Source: Rhizophagus irregularis (lineage: Eukaryota; Glomeromycota; Glomeromycetes; Glomerales; Glomeraceae). From it: a DNA stretch of 64,000 nt. The notes beneath the pieces are model-generated. The model was not told where the DNA came from. It saw only the letters and a program-made list of their open reading frames with translations, and made no database searches. Below, piece by piece: positions 5,333 to 23,827 of the stretch. Numbering within the stretch: the first letter of the stretch is position 1; each line of letters begins with the position of its first letter. The stretch spans positions 1,674,001 to 1,738,000 of the forward strand of contig NC_089436.1 of NCBI RefSeq assembly GCF_026210795.1, in the 5' to 3' direction. The position numbers were made by a program, and so were the translations under genes.

Positions 5333-7000
5333 CTATCTAAATTTCTCTCCAAGAGTATCGATATCTTCCCAGCTTAATCCATAGATATGCGACACTGGGG
5401 TCTTTACCCGCTGTATCTTTTCAAACCCAATGGTGCTAAATAAATCATAAATCTTTCTTGCTCTTTCTATCCTTTTCTCAATAGTATTTTTCGATAGATC
5501 GCTTGGGAGTTGCTTTGTAACTTCTTTGACGAGCATTCTCTGAGCCTTACGGTCTCTATGGAGACTTTTGAATCTATCAAACATATTTTCAAGTTCTTCC
5601 CCAAACGAATAATATCGCAAAATAATCTCTTGATTTGTAGCTCTATTTTTTTCTTCAGCTGTAAGGATCGCATTATATAAATCAGTAAGATTGCCTCGGT
5701 CTGCGATTGTGGGTTGTGTATCAGTGGTACTCGATGCAGAGCTTGGTGTTGCTAACTCCTTGATAAGCCTTTTCAGAGTAGGTGATTCCCCGACATTAGT
5801 TAAGGTCTTCTGCTTTTTGCTAGATGATTTTTCGGTAGAAGCAGGTTCCATAGTACGTTTATTCTGCGTGGTACTCGAGCCCTGGGTTTCAAAATTGTTG
5901 GTTACTGTTTCATCGTCGTCAGTTTCCATATCATCAGTTTCCGTATCATTAGTTGATGGACATATAGGGCATAGCTTTCGTGGATTATCGATACAGTTGT
6001 AATGGACAATATGCTTGCAGGTTAAATATACGAGCGGTTTCGAAGGACCTTGAGGTTGAGGGGCGATTCGAAGAAAGCCTAGAGGAGGGAGGGACGAAGA
6101 AAGGTCTTCAGAGCATTTAGCGCATCTCAAAGTACTTTTGTCTTGCTGAGTTACTGGACCCTCGATCCCTAACATCCGTATAGGCGGTGAAGATAGGGCA
6201 AACGTTCCCATTGAAGGTGAAATTCCACTCGATTGGGAGGTCATTCTGGGATCCGGATTGGAAATGATACCAGCTTTATCTAAGATGTCCACACTCTTTC
6301 CACAGTCGGGGGCTGGACATGCGCTTGGAGTGCCAATAAAAAGTCTATTTTCGATACAGAGTCTGTGAAAAATATGTCCGCAACTGAGGTATGTGAACGC
6401 CTTGAGAGGGGACATTAAAATGTCATTGCCACATTCAGAGCATGAACCTAGTTCTGGGAAATCAATATCTCTAACAGTCTTATCTTCGAGACTTTTGAGG
6501 ATATTATATCCAAGGTTTCTAAGGTTAATAAGAGAGGATCTCTCAGATTCCGAAATACTGCTCTTTTCTCTACCTCCATAATCGACTATGCTGTATTGGA
6601 AAGGTAATAATGGATCACTATTATCTGCCTTACCACATGAGCAAAGTAATGTTCCATCTTTATACATTGTTTTCGCACAAGTCCAATGGATCATATCGCC
6701 ACAAACGTTTAAAACGAGCGCTCTAGGTGGATCTTCTGCCAAAATGGGGGTACTACACTCTCCACACGGCCCATAATCCGGGATAGTGTTGTTGGATTTA
6801 ATCGATGAAAAATCTGGCTCTTCACGAAGAATGTCCTCTGGAAGATACTTTAATATATTTAACGCAATTGATTTAAGGGATTTGTTGCGTCTTGGTTGCA
6901 CTTCGTAAATATCTCTTCTTTGTGTGTTGCCGATTGGGTCCATATTGATTTCATCAGCAGTGATCGCTTCCAAATTAACTGAGCTCTCTTGGTTCTCCAT
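5333..7000 (-). CDS. Triple RING-type zinc-finger protein, 555 aa
   Basis: The frame is intact from ATG 7000. Three RING-like Cys/His clusters lie at residues about 79-122 (CGECSTPILA with CGDMIHWTC and LCSCG), 187-233 (CSECGNDILM with CGHIFHRLC and CPAPDCG) and 293-347 (CAKCSEDLSS with CKHIVHYNC and CPICPS). An acidic/Ser-Thr linker with a basic patch (KSSSKKQK) follows, then a helical C-terminal domain (EIILRYYSFGEELENMF, then RARKIYDLFSTIG). RING fingers usually recruit ubiquitin E2 enzymes; the C-terminal domain is also found, as I recall, in unrelated Rhizophagus coiled-coil proteins, so it may be a shared targeting module. The second and third fingers keep the C-G/K-H-I-x-H-x-x-C knuckle best. 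A decayed paralogue lies at 57.18-58.5 kb. Confidence 0.75.
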   Translation of the reverse strand: MENQESSVNLEAITADEINMDPIGNTQRRDIYEVQPRRNKSLKSIALNILKYLPEDILREEPDFSSIKSNNTIPDYGPCGECSTPILAEDPPRALVLNVCGDMIHWTCAKTMYKDGTLLCSCGKADNSDPLLPFQYSIVDYGGREKSSISESERSSLINLRNLGYNILKSLEDKTVRDIDFPELGSCSECGNDILMSPLKAFTYLSCGHIFHRLCIENRLFIGTPSACPAPDCGKSVDILDKAGIISNPDPRMTSQSSGISPSMGTFALSSPPIRMLGIEGPVTQQDKSTLRCAKCSEDLSSSLPPLGFLRIAPQPQGPSKPLVYLTCKHIVHYNCIDNPRKLCPICPSTNDTETDDMETDDDETVTNNFETQGSSTTQNKRTMEPASTEKSSSKKQKTLTNVGESPTLKRLIKELATPSSASSTTDTQPTIADRGNLTDLYNAILTAEEKNRATNQEIILRYYSFGEELENMFDRFKSLHRDRKAQRMLVKEVTKQLPSDLSKNTIEKRIERARKIYDLFSTIGFEKIQRVKTPVSHIYGLSWEDIDTLGEKFR

Positions 7001-13372: not shown

Positions 13373-13487
13373 TATGCGAAAATTAATATGCTTTAGCGCC
13401 TTAACGGCTGTCGCACAAGACCTGTCTGATGATCCACTTATTTTTTGTCGCACAGGAGTGGCCCAGCAAATTCATCCGAGCTGAAGA
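13373..13487. repeat. Gene-end direct repeat, copy 2
   Basis: Second copy of the 12.80-12.90 kb block: TATGCGAAAATTAATATGC, CTGATGATCCACTTATTTTT, GGCCCAGCAAATTCATCCG, AGCTGAAGA. It covers the last codons of the F-box gene, so part of the repeat is coding in this copy. Confidence 0.55.
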
Positions 13488-14395
13488 TCACTGCTCCGGA
13501 CTATTGATCTAGCCAACCCTGGATCGGAATACCACTGCAAATTATCTCGCATACTTAAATCTAAGAGGCGCTGAAGTCCCTGAGCTAAAATCTGTCTACT
13601 AAAAACGTTGTTCTGTATAAGATGATTTCTAACTGCTCTAATGAGATCGGGAGGTGATAAAGTTTCCTCGAAATTCTCTATGTGGACATTTGGATTTAGC
13701 TTATTTACGGCTTCTTTGCTAATTTTATAACACCCCCCTAAATTAAGATATTTTAAATTGGGACATGATCTAGCAATTTCTTCAATAGTTATATCAGTAA
13801 TTTCACAATAGCTAAGGTCAAGTTGTTGGAGCCTCGGGCAGGAGCAAATAACATTACAAATTATTATTTCAGAAAACCCTGTATGACCCGAAATATTTAG
13901 ATATTCTAGTTTGTGGCATGAATTTGCGATTGCAGATAAACCTATATCGCTTTCTGATTTAAATCCGTGTAAAGTAGATATATTAAGATACTCCAAATTT
14001 GGGTATGACTTTGCTATTAGCTTTAGAGTTTTACCAAAACGGTCGTCTGTACTCCCTTCGAAATTTAAATGAATTATATTTGGGAATGTGTGTACAATGC
14101 CTTTGATTTTTTTATTTGAAAGTGAAGGATAGCGTGTTATTTTAAGATGAGTTAGTTTTGAGCTATAAACTGGCTTTCTTCCTCCTCCGGGTACTATTTT
14201 TAAAAATCTTTCTAATCGAGTTCGATCCTCTGCTTCCCCTCCCTTTAGCTCAATACGCCTCCATAGAATAGGAGCACCGCATCTGTACCACAATCGGGAA
14301 ACATATAGAGCGGGATAGAGAGATTTATCTATCAATAAGAAATGTAAAATATGTTCTAGTACTTCTGGTAAATAAAAGATGCTTGTTTGCGCCAT
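13472..14395 (-). CDS. F-box and leucine-rich-repeat protein, 307 aa
   Basis: Intact frame from ATG 14395. Residues about 6-50 form an F-box ([15 protein letters not shown], then [20 protein letters not shown]). The rest is a run of Cys-containing leucine-rich repeats: [94 protein letters not shown]-box/LRR proteins are substrate adaptors of SCF ubiquitin ligases: the F-box binds Skp1, the LRR arc binds the target. The gene is first (3'-most) in the compact minus-strand array and has the TTTTTTCGATTAAAGATA box 22 nt before its ATG, so it appears to share its promoter type with the array. The family is host-like and strongly expanded in Rhizophagus. Confidence 0.75.
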
Positions 14396-18159: not shown

Positions 18160-20223
18160 TTACCAAAGCATACCATTCTCCTGGAGTATGCTTACTGTTT
18201 TTTTCCATTTCTCGTCAGTATCAAGCCAGGAGGATGTAACTCCATCATCCTCGAGCCCACGACGGATAATTTCTTCTCCTATTAATCTTTCCCGTACTTT
18301 CATGTCCATATATTCTTTGGGATCTTCTTCTAACTCTTCTGCCCAACCACACATTCGTGAATCAGTTTCCATCCTATCCCGAAATGTAATGGAATCGAGC
18401 CTGTCTTTTTCGGTAATGGTTACGAAGACATCTGGATCCTCACCAAGTTCGACTGCCCTTTTTCTGAGACGCTCATCTCGCTGAGCTCTGGCCAAAAGTA
18501 TGGCAGACGATACTTCATTGATAGGCTTAGAAGAATCGCGCTTGACATTTGTTTCTTTAGAAGGCGTATACACTACTTCACAAATAGGCTCATCTGACTC
18601 AGGATGCTTGCTAGTCTCAGGACCATCGATTAGTGGCTCAGCTGTTTTAGAAGTCTCGGATGTGCCAGATGTTGAGGCGACCGGAGCACGTGTATCTTCT
18701 GCCATATAGTCAAAAAGAGATTGGGTCAAATCGTCCTGTTTATTCGCCTTCTTATCTTTACTAGTACTAAGTGGAGGCGTATTCTTTTCTGGAAAAGGTG
18801 AGATTATTTTGGGAGGGATAATTTCCGGCACATTAAATATAGGTATGTCTGCTGTCTCATTTTCGGGTAAGACAGGTTGAGGTGTATCTTCGATAGGTGT
18901 ATCGGAAAATTCTTCCATATCACCTAGGCCAGATTCATGGAGCTTAGCTATGATCTTGGAGCGGTCGAGAATGTATTGCCATTCTCTTTTCCCACCACCC
19001 ACTCGTCCCTGTTTACATTCAATAATATTTTTCTCTGATAGCTTCTTGCCGAAAATGTTATTAGAAAATGGCTTTTCACCATTATCCCCACACCATTCAA
19101 GATATTTTTGATATAATAATGTTCGACCTGTCTTGACTATACTATTCTCAGCCCAGGATCCAATATGGTCAATAATAAATCGAATGGGATTGGGAAGTTG
19201 GTCTCGCATTATATCTTTTTTCATTTTAGTATTAGGAATTTCCTGTGGCTCAAAATCTGAAAGGTCACGACTAAGAAGATATTTCATAACTATGCCAGGC
19301 GCATCAGAATGGTCAAGTATATTTCCTAGTCTTTTGAAATACTTTGTATTTCCTCTACAGCGTGTAGAGACATTAAAACAAACTACACGAGAATCACCTA
19401 TGTCTATTTTGAGTGGCGCATCCTGATTACTAGTAATCATATACCCGGTGAAGTCTTTTAATCGTTTAGTTTCAAGACCTTTACGTTCTATAGCAACTCT
19501 TCCTTCTGTTATGAGAGATTTGAGATGTTCGTTAAACTTATACCATTCCCCACTAGACATTCCAGTCTCATTCATAATGATAAGTTTTCAAGCTTGAATG
19601 GCGCTATTAAACCGCCCAAGAATTTTTTCTAAATCCGATGTTGCGAAATGAAGATGTGGTCCTAAGACTTTATCTCCAATAAAATCTGTAATAATATTTT
19701 TTCCACACTGTTGTAGAGTGGATTTTAGTACTAAGATTGATCGGGGCTTCTGTTGTGGTTTCTGCACTAAAAGGGCCCACCAGTTCCAGATATACTCATT
19801 AAGGACTTCATTCCCATCGCAAATTATATTTCTTACATGCCAAAGGATCAGATCCATAATTTCTTTGTTAATATCCATCGCTGGCTTAGCCAAAAATCCT
19901 AGGAAAAGGTTAAAAAATTCTGTGTTTGGTTGAGGAACGCTTATGGGATATGGGAGGAAATCATAATTTGCGTAAACTATTAGACCTTTAATAACTGCCT
20001 GGTCTATCAATGATTTTAACTTCACTGCTTCACCTCCATATTCGATTATTTTAATCACAAACTTGGCAAGTTTTAGTTCGGCTCCCATACCAAAGTAAAG
20101 CCCATTTTCTGGATCCCTATGTTTTAATATCCAGACTGGCTTATCCAATTGAATATAGGCAACGGTTGATTGGATTGCTTTATAAACTTCAGCGCGGGAG
20201 AATTTACTACCTGAAGTACACAT
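18160..20223 (-). CDS. D5/NrS-1-type SF3 helicase, in two frames' worth of pieces
   Basis: The upstream piece (20223-19588) has the linker typical of the viral/phage D5 family (FNLFLGFLAKPAMDINKEIM, then IWNWWALLVQKPQQKPRSIL) and a phosphate-loop region LVLKSTLQQCGKN. The larger piece (19575-18160, 471 aa) has Walker-B-like IIMNET before SGEW, the SF3 sensor stretch DFTGYMITSNQDAPLKID and DSRVVCFNVSTRCRGN. A winged-helix-like region follows (SNNIFGKKLSEKNIIECKQG), then a long disordered Ser/Thr/Glu-rich tail. SF3 helicases unwind the origin of small replicons and DNA viruses. With the primase upstream this is the domain set usually seen in a primase-helicase protein. Broken, about one or two breaks. 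The disordered tail is unusual for the family. Confidence 0.7.
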
Positions 20224-20294: not shown

Positions 20295-21368
20295 TCAGAA
20301 GTTTTTTTCCCTATCTAAGGCTGTCTCGCTAATAGTAAGCCTTACTGAGGGATTTCTAGTTCCAGGTTCTCTTTCATGGTTTGCACGATGGCAATAAAAT
20401 CTATATGTTTTTTTATTTCGTAGGATATATGCATTATCACTTTCATGTTCCCGATCACATATTGGACAGTGCGATGGGGAGTTGCGTACTAATGGAAATA
20501 AGTCAGGGATGTTATCTGAAGGAAATGAGAGAGTATAACCTTCGATAGAATTATCTCTAAGTAATGTTTCTATGAAATCGAATTCAGCCTGATCATTTTC
20601 GATATTGGCATCAGTATTTTCATTTCCTTTGATCGGGCATCTCTTAACTTCTGGCTCTGAAACAGTCAAAAGAGGACTATCAATGATTCTGGAATCATCA
20701 TTGGGCGGACGAATCATAAAGTCAAAGATGGATCCATCTTTTGGACGAATAGCTTTTTTTATACGAACATGTTTGTCTGTTTTTTTATCATATTTGGGCG
20801 TTCCAAGCATCCGCAAGGAGAAAGATTTGAAAGAACCTATATTTGCTATATTATCAATTATCCTTTTTTTCTGTAATCCTGCTGGAAGTTTCTTGCGAAC
20901 AAGTTCGGTGAAAGCTGAAACCTTAGCGATATTTGGAAGTCTCATGCTGAAAGTTAAGACATGTAGAGATATTTTTTTCTCATCACTACTTTCGGCAATA
21001 GACATAGTTTCTTTATCCCATTCTGGGAATATTTCTAGGCAAATATCTCTAAAGGCGCGACAAAGTAAATTTTTTGCCTGACCGCTTGAAAGCTTGGGGG
21101 TAATAGCATTTAATGCTTCTACTAGTAAGTCAAAATCTATAATGGGGCGGAGTGGTTCATCACCATCGATGATTTCGTGTAAGGAATGGCCTTCACGTTC
21201 TGCGAGTATGGCCTCTATTTCGTCCTCGTTATCTGCGCCAAGGAATTGTCTTGGTCTGACGCTATCATCACGAATTTTATATTGGTATTGACCTACATCG
21301 GAGGCTTTAAACCCACATGGGGCGGAGGCGTCGGAGAGGAACTCTGAAAGCTCAGAATGTTCGGTCAT
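20295..21368 (-). CDS. AEP-superfamily primase with zinc-binding C-terminus, 357 aa
   Basis: From ATG 21368. The first AEP motif is RPIIDFD (residues about 74-80; D-x-D binds metal), the second KISLHVLTF (about 132-140; S-x-H) and the third lies near FSLRMLGTPK (about 183-192). Residues about 301-331 hold CPICDREH and FYCHRANHE, a Cys/His zinc site as in PriCT/zinc regions of viral primases. The order AEP, zinc knuckle, then D5-type helicase matches large DNA viruses, virophages and plasmids that prime their own replication. It is immediately upstream of the helicase on the same strand and divergent from a Cys/His-rich gene across 117 bases. It is not the host's two-subunit primase. Confidence 0.7.
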   Translation of the reverse strand: MTEHSELSEFLSDASAPCGFKASDVGQYQYKIRDDSVRPRQFLGADNEDEIEAILAEREGHSLHEIIDGDEPLRPIIDFDLLVEALNAITPKLSSGQAKNLLCRAFRDICLEIFPEWDKETMSIAESSDEKKISLHVLTFSMRLPNIAKVSAFTELVRKKLPAGLQKKRIIDNIANIGSFKSFSLRMLGTPKYDKKTDKHVRIKKAIRPKDGSIFDFMIRPPNDDSRIIDSPLLTVSEPEVKRCPIKGNENTDANIENDQAEFDFIETLLRDNSIEGYTLSFPSDNIPDLFPLVRNSPSHCPICDREHESDNAYILRNKKTYRFYCHRANHEREPGTRNPSVRLTISETALDREKNF

Positions 21369-21485
21369 TTTTTCTCAAGCAATTTACGATAATTTATAGT
21401 TATACCAAATCTCGAGGTATATTATTCACAAGAAAAAAGTTTAAAATGAAAATAATTCCCCGACATTATTAATTGATATATACAA

Positions 21486-21797
21486 ATGGGAGGCGGAAAA
21501 AAGGTGACACTCTGGAATTTTTATTATTGTCCATATATTCTTAGGACTGGAGAAGTGTGCAATCGGAGATGCTATCATCCAAAGGGATGTAAAGTCCATC
21601 GAAAATCTAGGCAAGTTCCTTGCAAAGAACCCGGGTGTGAAGAGAATACAAGATCCAAATATGACTATTGCGATACACATGCAAAAAAACATAGATCAAG
21701 GGAGCATTATCATCAGAAAAAGCAGGCTAAGTTGGCTTCGGCGGAGATACTGGTAGGTAATTTAGAGGTAAACAAAAATAATACAACTTATCACTAG
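21486..21797 (+). CDS. Cys/His-rich zinc-cluster protein, 103 aa
   Basis: Starts at ATG 21486 (MGGGKKVTLWNFYYCPYILR) and is dense in zinc ligands: CPYILRTGEVCNRRCYHPKG, CKVHRKSRQVPCKEPGCEEN, then KYDYCDTHAKKHRSREHYHQ. Two or three C-x2-4-C...H-x-C units are likely, followed by a Lys-rich helix. It is divergent from the primase and reads directly into the iterated-site region (its last codons overlap the first site), a position common for a replication initiator or regulator; that role is inference. I recall similar Cys/His proteins in multiple copies in Rhizophagus. Confidence 0.55.
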   Translation: MGGGKKVTLWNFYYCPYILRTGEVCNRRCYHPKGCKVHRKSRQVPCKEPGCEENTRSKYDYCDTHAKKHRSREHYHQKKQAKLASAEILVGNLEVNKNNTTYH

Positions 21798-22225
21798 TGG
21801 ATCCCTTTGGGATCGTGTCACTAGAAAAAAAAGCTGGTGACAGAAGCCAGTGACGCAGACGATAGGCTCTTTAAGAATTCTAAGCTGAAAGAAATCTTTC
21901 TCGATGAGTGTCACCAGTGTCACTAGCGTCACTAGAAAAATCTGAGTTCCTTAACTTTTTTTTATTTTTTTATAGCATATATACACTATACATATATCAT
22001 ACCATAATATATATACATCATAGAAGATAGCATAGAAAAAATTCGTTTTTTTTTTCAGAATTTATTACTCTTTTACTAGTGACACTAGTGACACTAATCA
22101 AGAAAGAAATGAAATAGCATAATAACCTCAAGAAGTATAACGAACGTGTCACTAGTTCTGTCACTAGTTCCGTATACTAACTGATGACACTAGTGACGCT
22201 CAAAAAATAGCATACACACTGCCTC
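21786..22225. repeat. Iterated-site unit A (CTAGTGACA sites)
   Basis: About ten copies, in both orientations, of a 9-bp site CTAGTGACA / TGTCACTAG. Clusters lie at about 21908-21935, a tandem direct run at about 22074-22096, a pair at about 22147-22169 and a final site at about 22186-22197. Between them are T-rich and TAGCATA-rich AT stretches, ending CTCAAAAAATAGCATACACA. The layout is matched, site for site, by unit B. Confidence 0.7.
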
Positions 22226-22339
22226 AGCTGAAGAAAAAAATAGAGCTACAAATCAAGAGATTATTTTGCGACATTATTCATAAATTCGGCTCGATAAAAT
22301 TAAAAGGTTTGATACAATACAGAACTGGCCTTAGAAAGT

Positions 22340-22845
22340 TGTCCATAGAAAAAAATCGGACTATGAATGCTTCTATGGACGTCGGAAGTAGGTTTTGGGC
22401 AGTTTAGATTCCTGGAAAGCCATCCAGATGGGTGACCGATAGTGACCATAGAAAAAAATCAGACTATGGACGTCAGAAGTAGGGTTTTTGATGCTTTTAG
22501 ATCTCTGGAAGGCTTTACAGATGGGTGACCATAGCGACCATAATGACCATAGAAAAAATCGGATCTCTTAACTTTTTTTTTTATTTTTAGCATAGCATAT
22601 ATTACACATATACCACCCATATAGCATAAAAAATGATCGCATATAATGGAACATTTATAGCATAGGAAAAGTTTCGAAAATTTCCCTACAACTTTACTTT
22701 TACTATGGACACTATGGACACTAGGGACAAATATAGAAGAAAAGAAGCAATAAACTTAAAATCCCCAAAAACGATACCATAATTGTCCATAGAAGCGTCC
22801 ATAGAAAAATTTCCCTATGGACACTCAAAAAAGTAGCATACACAT
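22340..22845. repeat. Iterated-site unit B (CTATGGACA sites)
   Basis: Paralogous to unit A: the same T-run block TTAACTTTTTTTTTTATTTT, the same TAGCATA stretches and the same end CTCAAAAAAGTAGCATACAC. All sites read CTATGGACA / TGTCCATAG or TGACCATAG instead of CTAGTGACA. Sites lie at about 22341, 22372, 22443, 22463, 22526-22551, a tandem run at 22703-22729, a pair at 22784-22805 and one at 22815. Two 110-base sub-repeats (CATAGAAAAAAATC, CTATGGACGTC) precede the part aligned with unit A. Confidence 0.7.
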
Positions 22846-22860
22846 TATCTCCGACCCAGA

Positions 22861-23172
22861 TTAAACCATGATCGGACCTCGGAAGTGCTTACAACATCCC
22901 GCCAATATACCGGCAACTAATAGGCAATAGTTGGTGCACTTCCGGCAATCAAATGGGTCAGGCCAAGATAATACATATGCACCTCCAATTCTAGATACAA
23001 AAAATATGTGGCACAAATGCATATATATTGGGTTCCGGAAACATTCCCAGAACATTCCCGTCACTATCCCGTAACTATGTGAGGGTGTTCGGACGCCGAA
23101 CAGGATCACGTGACCGGCGCAGTAAGGCGCAGTCAAAAATCGCTCCATAAATTCGGCCAGTTCTTTAGACAT
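22861..23172 (-). CDS. Doubtful hypothetical frame, 103 aa
   Basis: Open from ATG 23172 (MSKELAEFMERFLTAPYCAG), rich in Cys and aromatic residues (YCLLVAGILAGCCKH near the end), no domain known to me. It lies in a G+C-richer block that also contains TCACGTGACCGGCGCAGTAA, a motif shared with the RING gene's 3' flank, so it may be repeat-derived rather than coding. Confidence 0.25.
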   Translation of the reverse strand: MSKELAEFMERFLTAPYCAGHVILFGVRTPSHSYGIVTGMFWECFRNPIYMHLCHIFFVSRIGGAYVLSWPDPFDCRKCTNYCLLVAGILAGCCKHFRGPIMV

Positions 23173-23827
23173 AATATTTCGGCATCCAAGCTGGCAAACT
23201 ACCAGTTCCCTACCAGTTCCATGGCAGTTCCACAGTAGCTACCAGGTCACTACCATGGCACCAAGTTGGAACCTCAAATCATGTGTCTAAAAGATCGGCC
23301 GAAATTATGGCATAGTGCCGGCCGAAATTAATCGCGGATCTAGATCGAACCACTGCTTAGCCCGACGTGATATTTTTTTACGTATTTCGGCATTAGCACA
23401 ACAAAATAAGTAAAGAATAAGCCTCGACACCTTAACAGGCAACCAAAGAGACCCAGAAGCAGGTAAACAAATAAATAGCTCTTTATTAATAAAATGAGCA
23501 CAGACCATTGAAAATAAGCAGATAGTTAGAAGGTAATAAAAAAGAAATAGAGCAATAAAATCAAATAAATATCTACAAAGCAATAAAAAAGCTACAAAAT
23601 AATAAAATCAAGTAGATAGCAATAAAGCAATAAAAAAGGCCATAGAGCACGAAAACAAGAAAGTAGGTAACATTATACCCATAAGTAGGTAACATTATAT
23701 AGCAAGTAGTTAACAGTCTAATAGACTGTTAACTACTAATTTCTTTGACTTGATAGACGGTCTTGATGTAAGTTTTTTCTTCTTTCTTTTCGTTTTCTCT
23801 CCTTTTTTCTTTAAAGTTGGTACTAAT
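23173..23827. other. Spacer: CCAGTTCC repeats, then AT-rich minisatellite
   Basis: At about 23195-23265 the phrase TACCAGTTCC and variants recur five times. From about 23580 the sequence becomes A-rich with AATAAAAAAGC repeats. From 23740 a pyrimidine-rich stretch with TTCTTTAAAGTTGGTACTAA belongs to the minisatellite family that is also at 39.3-39.97 kb and is the target of the transposon that starts at 23828. A 92-codon minus frame (23305-23583) has no recognised feature. Confidence 0.4.

Follow-up and report, generated by a model that had tools for sequence, protein, structure and literature searches.

The window, a 64,000-nucleotide stretch of Rhizophagus irregularis DNA on contig C8, contains the right-hand part of a virus-like element of 38,203 bp (C8:1659535-1697737), which is integrated in a chromosome-size contig and bounded by terminal inverted repeats (TIRs). 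Two arrays of short iterated sites, here called units A and B, lie in the right TIR; the site repeated in a unit is referred to as its word. The genome searched comprised 146.7 Mb in 32 contigs. The features are as follows, in window coordinates unless another stretch (L number) is named.

18160-19575, minus strand: C-terminal part of a D5-like SF3 helicase (DUF5906 and Pox_D5)
18946-19203, minus strand: helicase residues 125-210, putative Pox_D5/RFX-like winged-helix segment, which tracks the site word
19588-20223, minus strand: N-terminal part of the helicase, in the same frame as 18160-19575, a separate ORF in this copy
20295-21368, minus strand: 357-aa ORF, primase-like by position, without a Pfam match, starting about 420 bp inside unit A
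21320-23737, plus strand: right TIR, 2.4 kb, with its outer end at 23737 (left copy at L009:5535-7953)
21486-21797, plus strand: 103-aa Cys/His-rich ORF just inside unit A
21789-22198, plus strand: unit A, module of iterated CTAGTGACA (GT), matching the element's own helicase type
21909-21935, minus strand: upstream inverted block of unit A, three sites, period 9
21936-22075, no strand: AT-rich spacer of unit A with T runs, 81% A+T (TIR 63%)
22076-22093, plus strand: tandem direct sites of unit A, period 9
22147-22167, minus strand: downstream inverted pair of unit A
22190-22198, plus strand: final site of unit A, CTAGTGACG, followed by CTCAAAAAATAGCATACACA
22340-22823, plus strand: unit B, module of iterated CTATGGACA (TG)
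22553-22702, no strand: AT-rich spacer of unit B, 74% A+T
22703-22729, plus strand: tandem run of unit B, CTATGGACA CTATGGACA CTAGGGACA
23705-23737, no strand: terminal perfect palindrome, 16-bp arms and one central base; the element begins 5'-AG
23738-23742 and L009:5530-5534, no strand: target-site duplication AATTT
Window 23705-23737, L009:5535-5567, L011:2985-3034, L012:6609-6641, L014:36-68, L015:2795-2846, L017:3492-3531, L018:6717-6766 and L019:3619-3656: terminal palindromes

The two TIRs of the C8 element are 97.2% identical over 2445 columns in inverted orientation (BLAST, L009:5527-7953 versus window 21320-23746), and both element ends are sharp and open 5'-AGTAGTTAACAG. A second element, on C15, likewise begins with AG and has AGACA on either side. 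G+C content per 2-kb window was 32-40% within the C8 element versus 24-30% in the DNA to its right. Perfect palindromes of 33-52 bp were observed at or near the element end in nine of 11 stretches scanned and differ between lineages, while L016 and L020 showed no end palindrome at arms of 13 or more. The terminal palindrome of the C8 element, read from the outside inwards, has a central A at one end and a central T at the other; among palindromes of the 33-bp type generally, the single central base is A at some ends and T at others, an alternation that flip-flop of a hairpin end would leave.

Among the ORFs of the C8 element, Pfam matches include an rve integrase (9.7e-10) and a Pox_A32-type ATPase (3.2e-8). 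Its two polymerase ORFs matched only DNA_pol_B and DNA_pol_B_exo1 in Pfam, with no protein-primed model, and general DNA polymerase families in PHROG. The nearest PDB chain to the first of them is 8ywg (1206 aa, named only DNA polymerase, E 2.6e-101), which we take to be the polymerase of African swine fever virus (ASFV). No Pfam match to a major capsid protein or an Ulp1-like protease was obtained in the 30 ORFs scanned, a subset of the ORFs of this element. A RING-finger protein and an F-box/LRR protein (window 5333-7000 and 13472-14395) are possibly captured host genes, and an ORF adjoining the integrase (L010:8054-8719) matches HNH/homing-endonuclease PHROG families.

The initial annotation had described twin units with a common site layout, and this was confirmed: an inverted block, an AT-rich spacer, a period-9 tandem run, an inverted pair and a final site are found in both. 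Exact CTAGTGACA occurs seven times in the window versus 0.21 expected, with six of these copies in unit A, and exact CTATGGACA five times versus 0.34 expected, all in unit B; with at most one mismatch, 11-12 sites of its own word are present in unit A and 11 in unit B. The claim that each unit carries one word was borne out in that both units are enriched for their own word, but unit B is imperfect, with CTAGGGACA at one tandem site and CTATGGTCA at three upstream sites. The twin array recurs mirror-imaged in the left TIR, about 35 kb from the window copy, and the arrays sit about 0.9-1.9 kb from the element end. Free-standing twin units are ruled out by this mirroring at the other element end, and an ordinary satellite array is refuted, since the units belong to TIR elements carrying replication genes. 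On the right side, the primase ORF reads inward with unit A upstream of it; on the left, the copy of unit A precedes a 171-aa ORF and the polymerase. The first GT-like site (window 21789-21797) overlaps the 3' end of the Cys/His ORF, including its stop codon, and in several relatives the reverse complement of CTAGTGACA spells Cys-His-stop.

The arrays are widespread in the genome. Two tandem copies of the pattern CTANNGACA were found at 56 places (26 and 30 by strand) versus 4 and 2 for the reversed control, and the TIR used as a DNA query returned 111 matches, including, by our own count, twelve inverted pairs 36-91 kb apart and many single ends. Counting the two of the window, seven words were read in TIRs across the genome: GT (CTAGTGACA), TG (CTATGGACA), GG (CTAGGGACA), CT (CYTGTGACA), AGG (CTAGGACAA), TT (CTTAGTGACT) and AT (CATAGGGACT). 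In TT and AT units the first tandem period is 10. A count of 32 units spoke against random mixing of site types within units; word labels and unit limits had been set by eye beforehand, both TIRs of some elements were included, and most outer remnants as well as those units of L067, L057 and L024 that are irregular or interrupted were left out. For each word, the majority of exact sites matched that of the unit (GT 83/83, TG 11/15, GG 21/23, CT 6/9, AGG 6/11, TT 35/40, AT 12/12), AGG and CT being the least clean.

The layout was likewise shared. The distance from inverted block to tandem run was 152 ± 12 bp (range 136-177) in 30 of the 32 units, and the spacer was richer in A+T than the rest in 30 of 30 (0.77 versus 0.63); because units were chosen for holding arrays, this spacing and base composition, rather than the presence of arrays, are the result. 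Sites lying inverted and scattered over tens to hundreds of bases have the same word while the intervening DNA differs, and since slippage is unable to bring dispersed inverted sites into agreement, a shared binding partner would be the natural cause. At C30:2882 (minus strand of L057:721-936), a GCCGAAAC-rich stretch interrupts the TG unit. At C22:888 a GT unit and a TG unit adjoin; this locus was omitted from the tests, its helicase not having been identified. Stretch L074 (C3:2859) contains a Cys/His ORF without an adjoining unit, and the word for this element was taken from C3:2835, presumed displaced by insertion.

The D5-like helicase has 97 matches in its own genome, of which 30 loci were examined. 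Broken frames occur in many copies, including that of the window with its two ORFs in one frame, and open-frame copies exist elsewhere; among eight aligned members DUF5906 was detected in all and Pox_D5 in seven. The Pox_D5 match at residues 147-182 and a weak RFX match (E 0.035) suggest that residues 125-210 form a winged helix. A single-sequence model of this segment had low confidence (pLDDT 43), and the fold assignment therefore rests on Pfam and the literature. Searches against solved structures gave weak matches to 6k9c/6k9e (E 0.034 alone, 0.001 as a profile) and, for the single protein, to 7ola at residues 95-179 (E 0.053), presumably SaPI5 Rep. A second helicase subfamily of about 32-38% identity has about thirty matches in the genome (e.g. 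C24:2262218, C2:991340). In one scan, no relatives in viral contigs were confirmed.

The initial annotation had proposed that the sites change in concert with a binding protein, pointing to the neighbouring primase, SF3 helicase and Cys/His-rich protein. The first part stood, as the word follows a segment of the helicase in the manner of iteron origins; among the neighbours, it is the putative winged helix of the SF3 helicase that tracks the word best, not the Cys/His protein or the primase. Primase-helicase pieces from 27 elements were aligned to the ORFs of the window, and identity within words was compared with identity between words. In a first scan of 21 elements, the association peaked at about helicase residues 132-192. 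In 50-aa windows over 24 of the 27 elements (C25, C9_4154 and C31_558 being omitted), the within-minus-between difference peaked at 0.24 for residues 148-197 and was 0.03 at 198-247 and -0.04 to 0.15 in windows before residue 123. In four windows outside residues 123-222, none of 1000 shuffles reached the observed difference either, a weaker association that relatedness alone could produce.

For the segment 125-210, which was located by scanning rather than named beforehand and was judged against word labels assigned by eye, the nearest neighbour had the same word in 22 of 23 cases, compared with 14/22 for residues 1-115, 15/22 for the primase and middle part, and 8/22 for residues 215-471. 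The sole miss was C1, where the automatic row is out of frame and the in-frame pieces are TT-like. A tree of the segment from 23 elements (C9_4154 added; C1, C30_2885, C25 and C31_558 left out) needed six changes for seven words, the minimum, the words of C13, C30_2674 and C9_4154 having come from the prediction tests described below. On the 16 rows common to all parts, the segment required five changes, again the minimum, whereas the other segments required 8, 10 and 8, and shuffled means were about 10.2. The helicase C-terminal part (215-471), with little or no tracking, and the N-terminus, with weak tracking only, were rejected as determinants. AT-word helicases have the helix segment TSKVAGKKFS in common with TT-word helicases and the wing ISID..R..NGV.VYQY in common with GG-word helicases, and the AT word CATAGGGACT itself agrees with TT in the extra base and with GG in GGAC.

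The 357-aa ORF, which holds what we take to be a primase-like hhhDhD-like motif, tracked the word weakly (8 changes against a minimum of 5 and a shuffled mean of about 10.2). As the primase gene lies between the helicase segment and the TIR, plain linkage would predict the reverse order of tracking. The Cys/His ORF family has 113 genome matches, many of them adjoining site units in TIRs, but its agreement with the word is coarse only: GG, TG and AT words are split from the rest, while in the main clade GT, AGG and TT words fall on both sub-clades, and the tree (22 of the 30 loci) needs nine changes for seven words against a minimum of six and a shuffled mean of 13.2. In the C9 element, the same GT unit is accompanied in the two TIRs (L015, L016) by Cys/His ORFs that belong to different sub-clades, and TIR parts thus seem to have been exchanged between elements.

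Words were also written down beforehand, from the helicase segment alone, for five elements with unread units. In three of the five cases a unit was found, and its word was each time the one predicted. For C30:2674, TT was predicted and found. For C13, the word of C6:184 (CT) was predicted and found, with a second unit, TT, outside it. For C9:4154, AT was predicted and arrays were located at C9:4182k, 27.6 kb off, at the expected far TIR, while the search revealed no AT array in the near TIR (about 4150-4153k), the place predicted; AT-like sites had eleven matches in the genome, eight of which, spread over four places, showed no more than one mismatch. No unit was found for C25 (predicted CT), either in the stretch read or by search, and none by search for C31:558 (predicted AT).

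These results bear on the twin array of the window. In the tree, the window's helicase falls among those of the GT type (SH-aLRT 93), so that unit A is the matching module, and the proposal of the initial annotation that the two units are a working pair with two initiator specificities was not upheld for the C8 element. A left-over origin is the preferred reading of unit B. A unit at C6:2313k is about 91% identical to unit B, and the helicase there (C6:2317) is of the TG type. Outside the full unit at C1, C3:616, C8:1554, C9:1937, C11:3836 and C30:2538, a second word (GG; GG-like in C11) survives in no more than a few sites, and such second words may be remnants of replaced origins, with the order and direction of replacement conjectural. 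A left-over site is not always on the outside: the AGG units of C21, C3:1653 and C30:2793 are each followed inwards, before the Cys/His ORF is reached, by one or two sites of the GT type.

Several short repeated sites beside an AT-rich segment, as expected of an origin, are present in each unit, and together with the tracking by the helicase this makes it probable, in our assessment with good confidence, that the units are iteron-type replication-origin modules recognized by the helicase winged helix, a prediction from sequence that extends to both binding and origin use. The D5-type primase-helicase would bind the short sites through its winged helix on both sides of the AT-rich spacer, the spacer would be melted, replication would start inside each TIR, and the element's own DNA polymerase would then copy the element. 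Where the winged helix shifts in specificity, the sites of the module would change too, with their spacing kept, and sites following the winged helix in this way would explain why no fewer than seven words are in use among the elements of a single genome. A TIR may gain a new module, and the old one, here unit B with its TG word, may persist and decay.

A role in transcription is a competing explanation that we consider quite unlikely. The modules would then control the inward-reading replication genes, and either the Cys/His protein or a self-regulating helicase would bind them. The Cys/His ORF indeed lies directly inside unit A, its relatives stand beside site units in many TIRs, and the deep split of this family matches GG, TG and AT versus the other words; moreover, unit A is upstream of inward-reading ORFs at both ends, about 420 bp from the primase ORF on the right, a position compatible with a transcriptional function, be it the sole one or a further one. 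Against this, GT, AGG and TT occur on both Cys/His sub-clades, the Cys/His tree needs 9 changes where 6 would be the minimum, and the helicase segment outdoes both the Cys/His protein and the primase encoded between helicase and TIR. Long AT-rich spacers between inverted arrays are also more usual for origins.

The integrase or transposase might instead use the sites as subterminal binding sites, since the element encodes an rve integrase and the sites are located in TIRs, but the distance of the arrays from the end and a layout about an AT-rich spacer that better suits an origin render this highly improbable. We regard it as just as improbable that the uniformity arose by neutral gene conversion or slippage within units without any binding partner: tandem runs do homogenize by slippage and both TIRs of the C8 element are alike (97%), yet inverted, dispersed sites share a word while the DNA between them differs, and a neutral process gives no reason for the word to go with a protein segment whose coding sequence lies about 3 kb off, whereas the helicase segment tracks the word. 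Within the origin reading itself, both units could be active, one for the element's own helicase and one for the TG-type helicase of another element. Neither unit is reduced, each is retained in both TIRs, and TG-type helicases do exist in the genome (C6:2317, C30:2885); the six other TIRs in which the outer word is reduced to a few sites, as expected of relics, make this variant unlikely, and we prefer origin modules of which only unit A serves the C8 element.

D5-type primase-helicases serve replication in many large eukaryotic DNA viruses. With some two dozen naturally paired words and DNA-binding segments available from a single genome, origin recognition by this class, and a change of specificity with the layout intact, become directly testable. 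We tentatively propose, as a possibility rather than a probability, that these pairs constitute a natural recognition code for D5-type helicases, with at least seven origin words each read by its own winged-helix variant. If so, helix and wing would read different halves of the site, word switching would be an escape from the replication of other elements with old origins left as fossils in TIRs, and in giant viruses (ASFV, perhaps poxviruses) the same kind of winged-helix tail would serve as an origin reader.

In the open literature on R. irregularis elements, Polinton iterons, origins and helicases, we found no description of these site arrays, and the accessible part of PMC10234402 yielded nothing on viruses. 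Mavericks/Polintons of R. irregularis are reported without such details in the available text of PMC8647823, PMC11075540 and PMC7805220, the last recording no detectable capsid gene. The C8 element resembles Polintons/Mavericks, as far as the accessible descriptions go, in its TIRs, rve integrase, packaging-type ATPase and short duplications on integration, and differs from them in its length of 38 kb, its DNA_pol_B without a protein-primed match, its D5-like helicase and its iteron modules. The target-site duplication of Polintons/Mavericks is 6 bp, whereas that of the two elements examined is 5 bp, AATTT on C8 and AGACA on C15. Endogenous Asfarviridae-like regions of R. irregularis include a 1.5-Mb viral region and, in all five strains, shorter viral regions with PolB copies (PMC10640383). 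That survey, in its available part, did not detect A32 or D5 in the five strains, whereas relatives of both were found here in a TIR-bounded element, which adds TIR-bounded virus-like elements with D5- and A32-like genes to a fungus for which the survey reported neither. Iteron plasmids are free and use a Rep-type initiator, unlike this integrated, TIR-bounded element with a D5-like helicase. Geminivirus iterons offer a parallel in which different words in the same arrangement track a segment of the Rep initiator, although these are small circular ssDNA viruses with an unrelated initiator. In phage P4, a bacterial phage satellite, the C-terminal winged helix of the alpha protein binds iterons; we know of no such TIRs in P4. 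Like the proteins considered here, P4 alpha is a primase-helicase, and its origin-binding winged helix is named in the accessible part of PMC10516667. According to the same source, ASFV C962R is of the D5 type and ends in a winged helix resembling RFX1 and the origin-binding domain of P4; origin sites are not named there for C962R or poxvirus D5, whereas candidate sites are visible here. Among the closest counterparts are SaPI Rep and SCCmec Cch2, which, in the available text of PMC7581432, combine a helicase with short iterated sites, a primase being nearby or fused, as in the C8 element. The C-terminal domain of such helicases binds the origin iterons, of which Cch2 has only three of 5 nt (PMC7581432). 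A D5/SF3-type helicase with a C-terminal winged helix, characteristic of these systems, is also predicted here. As described, SaPI and SCCmec are bacterial and their origin lies directly downstream of the helicase gene, whereas the modules reported here lie in TIRs, upstream of the primase-helicase ORFs. By this analogy, the arrays are best read as helicase-iteron origins that would work in the manner of SaPI/SCCmec in a eukaryotic virus-like element.
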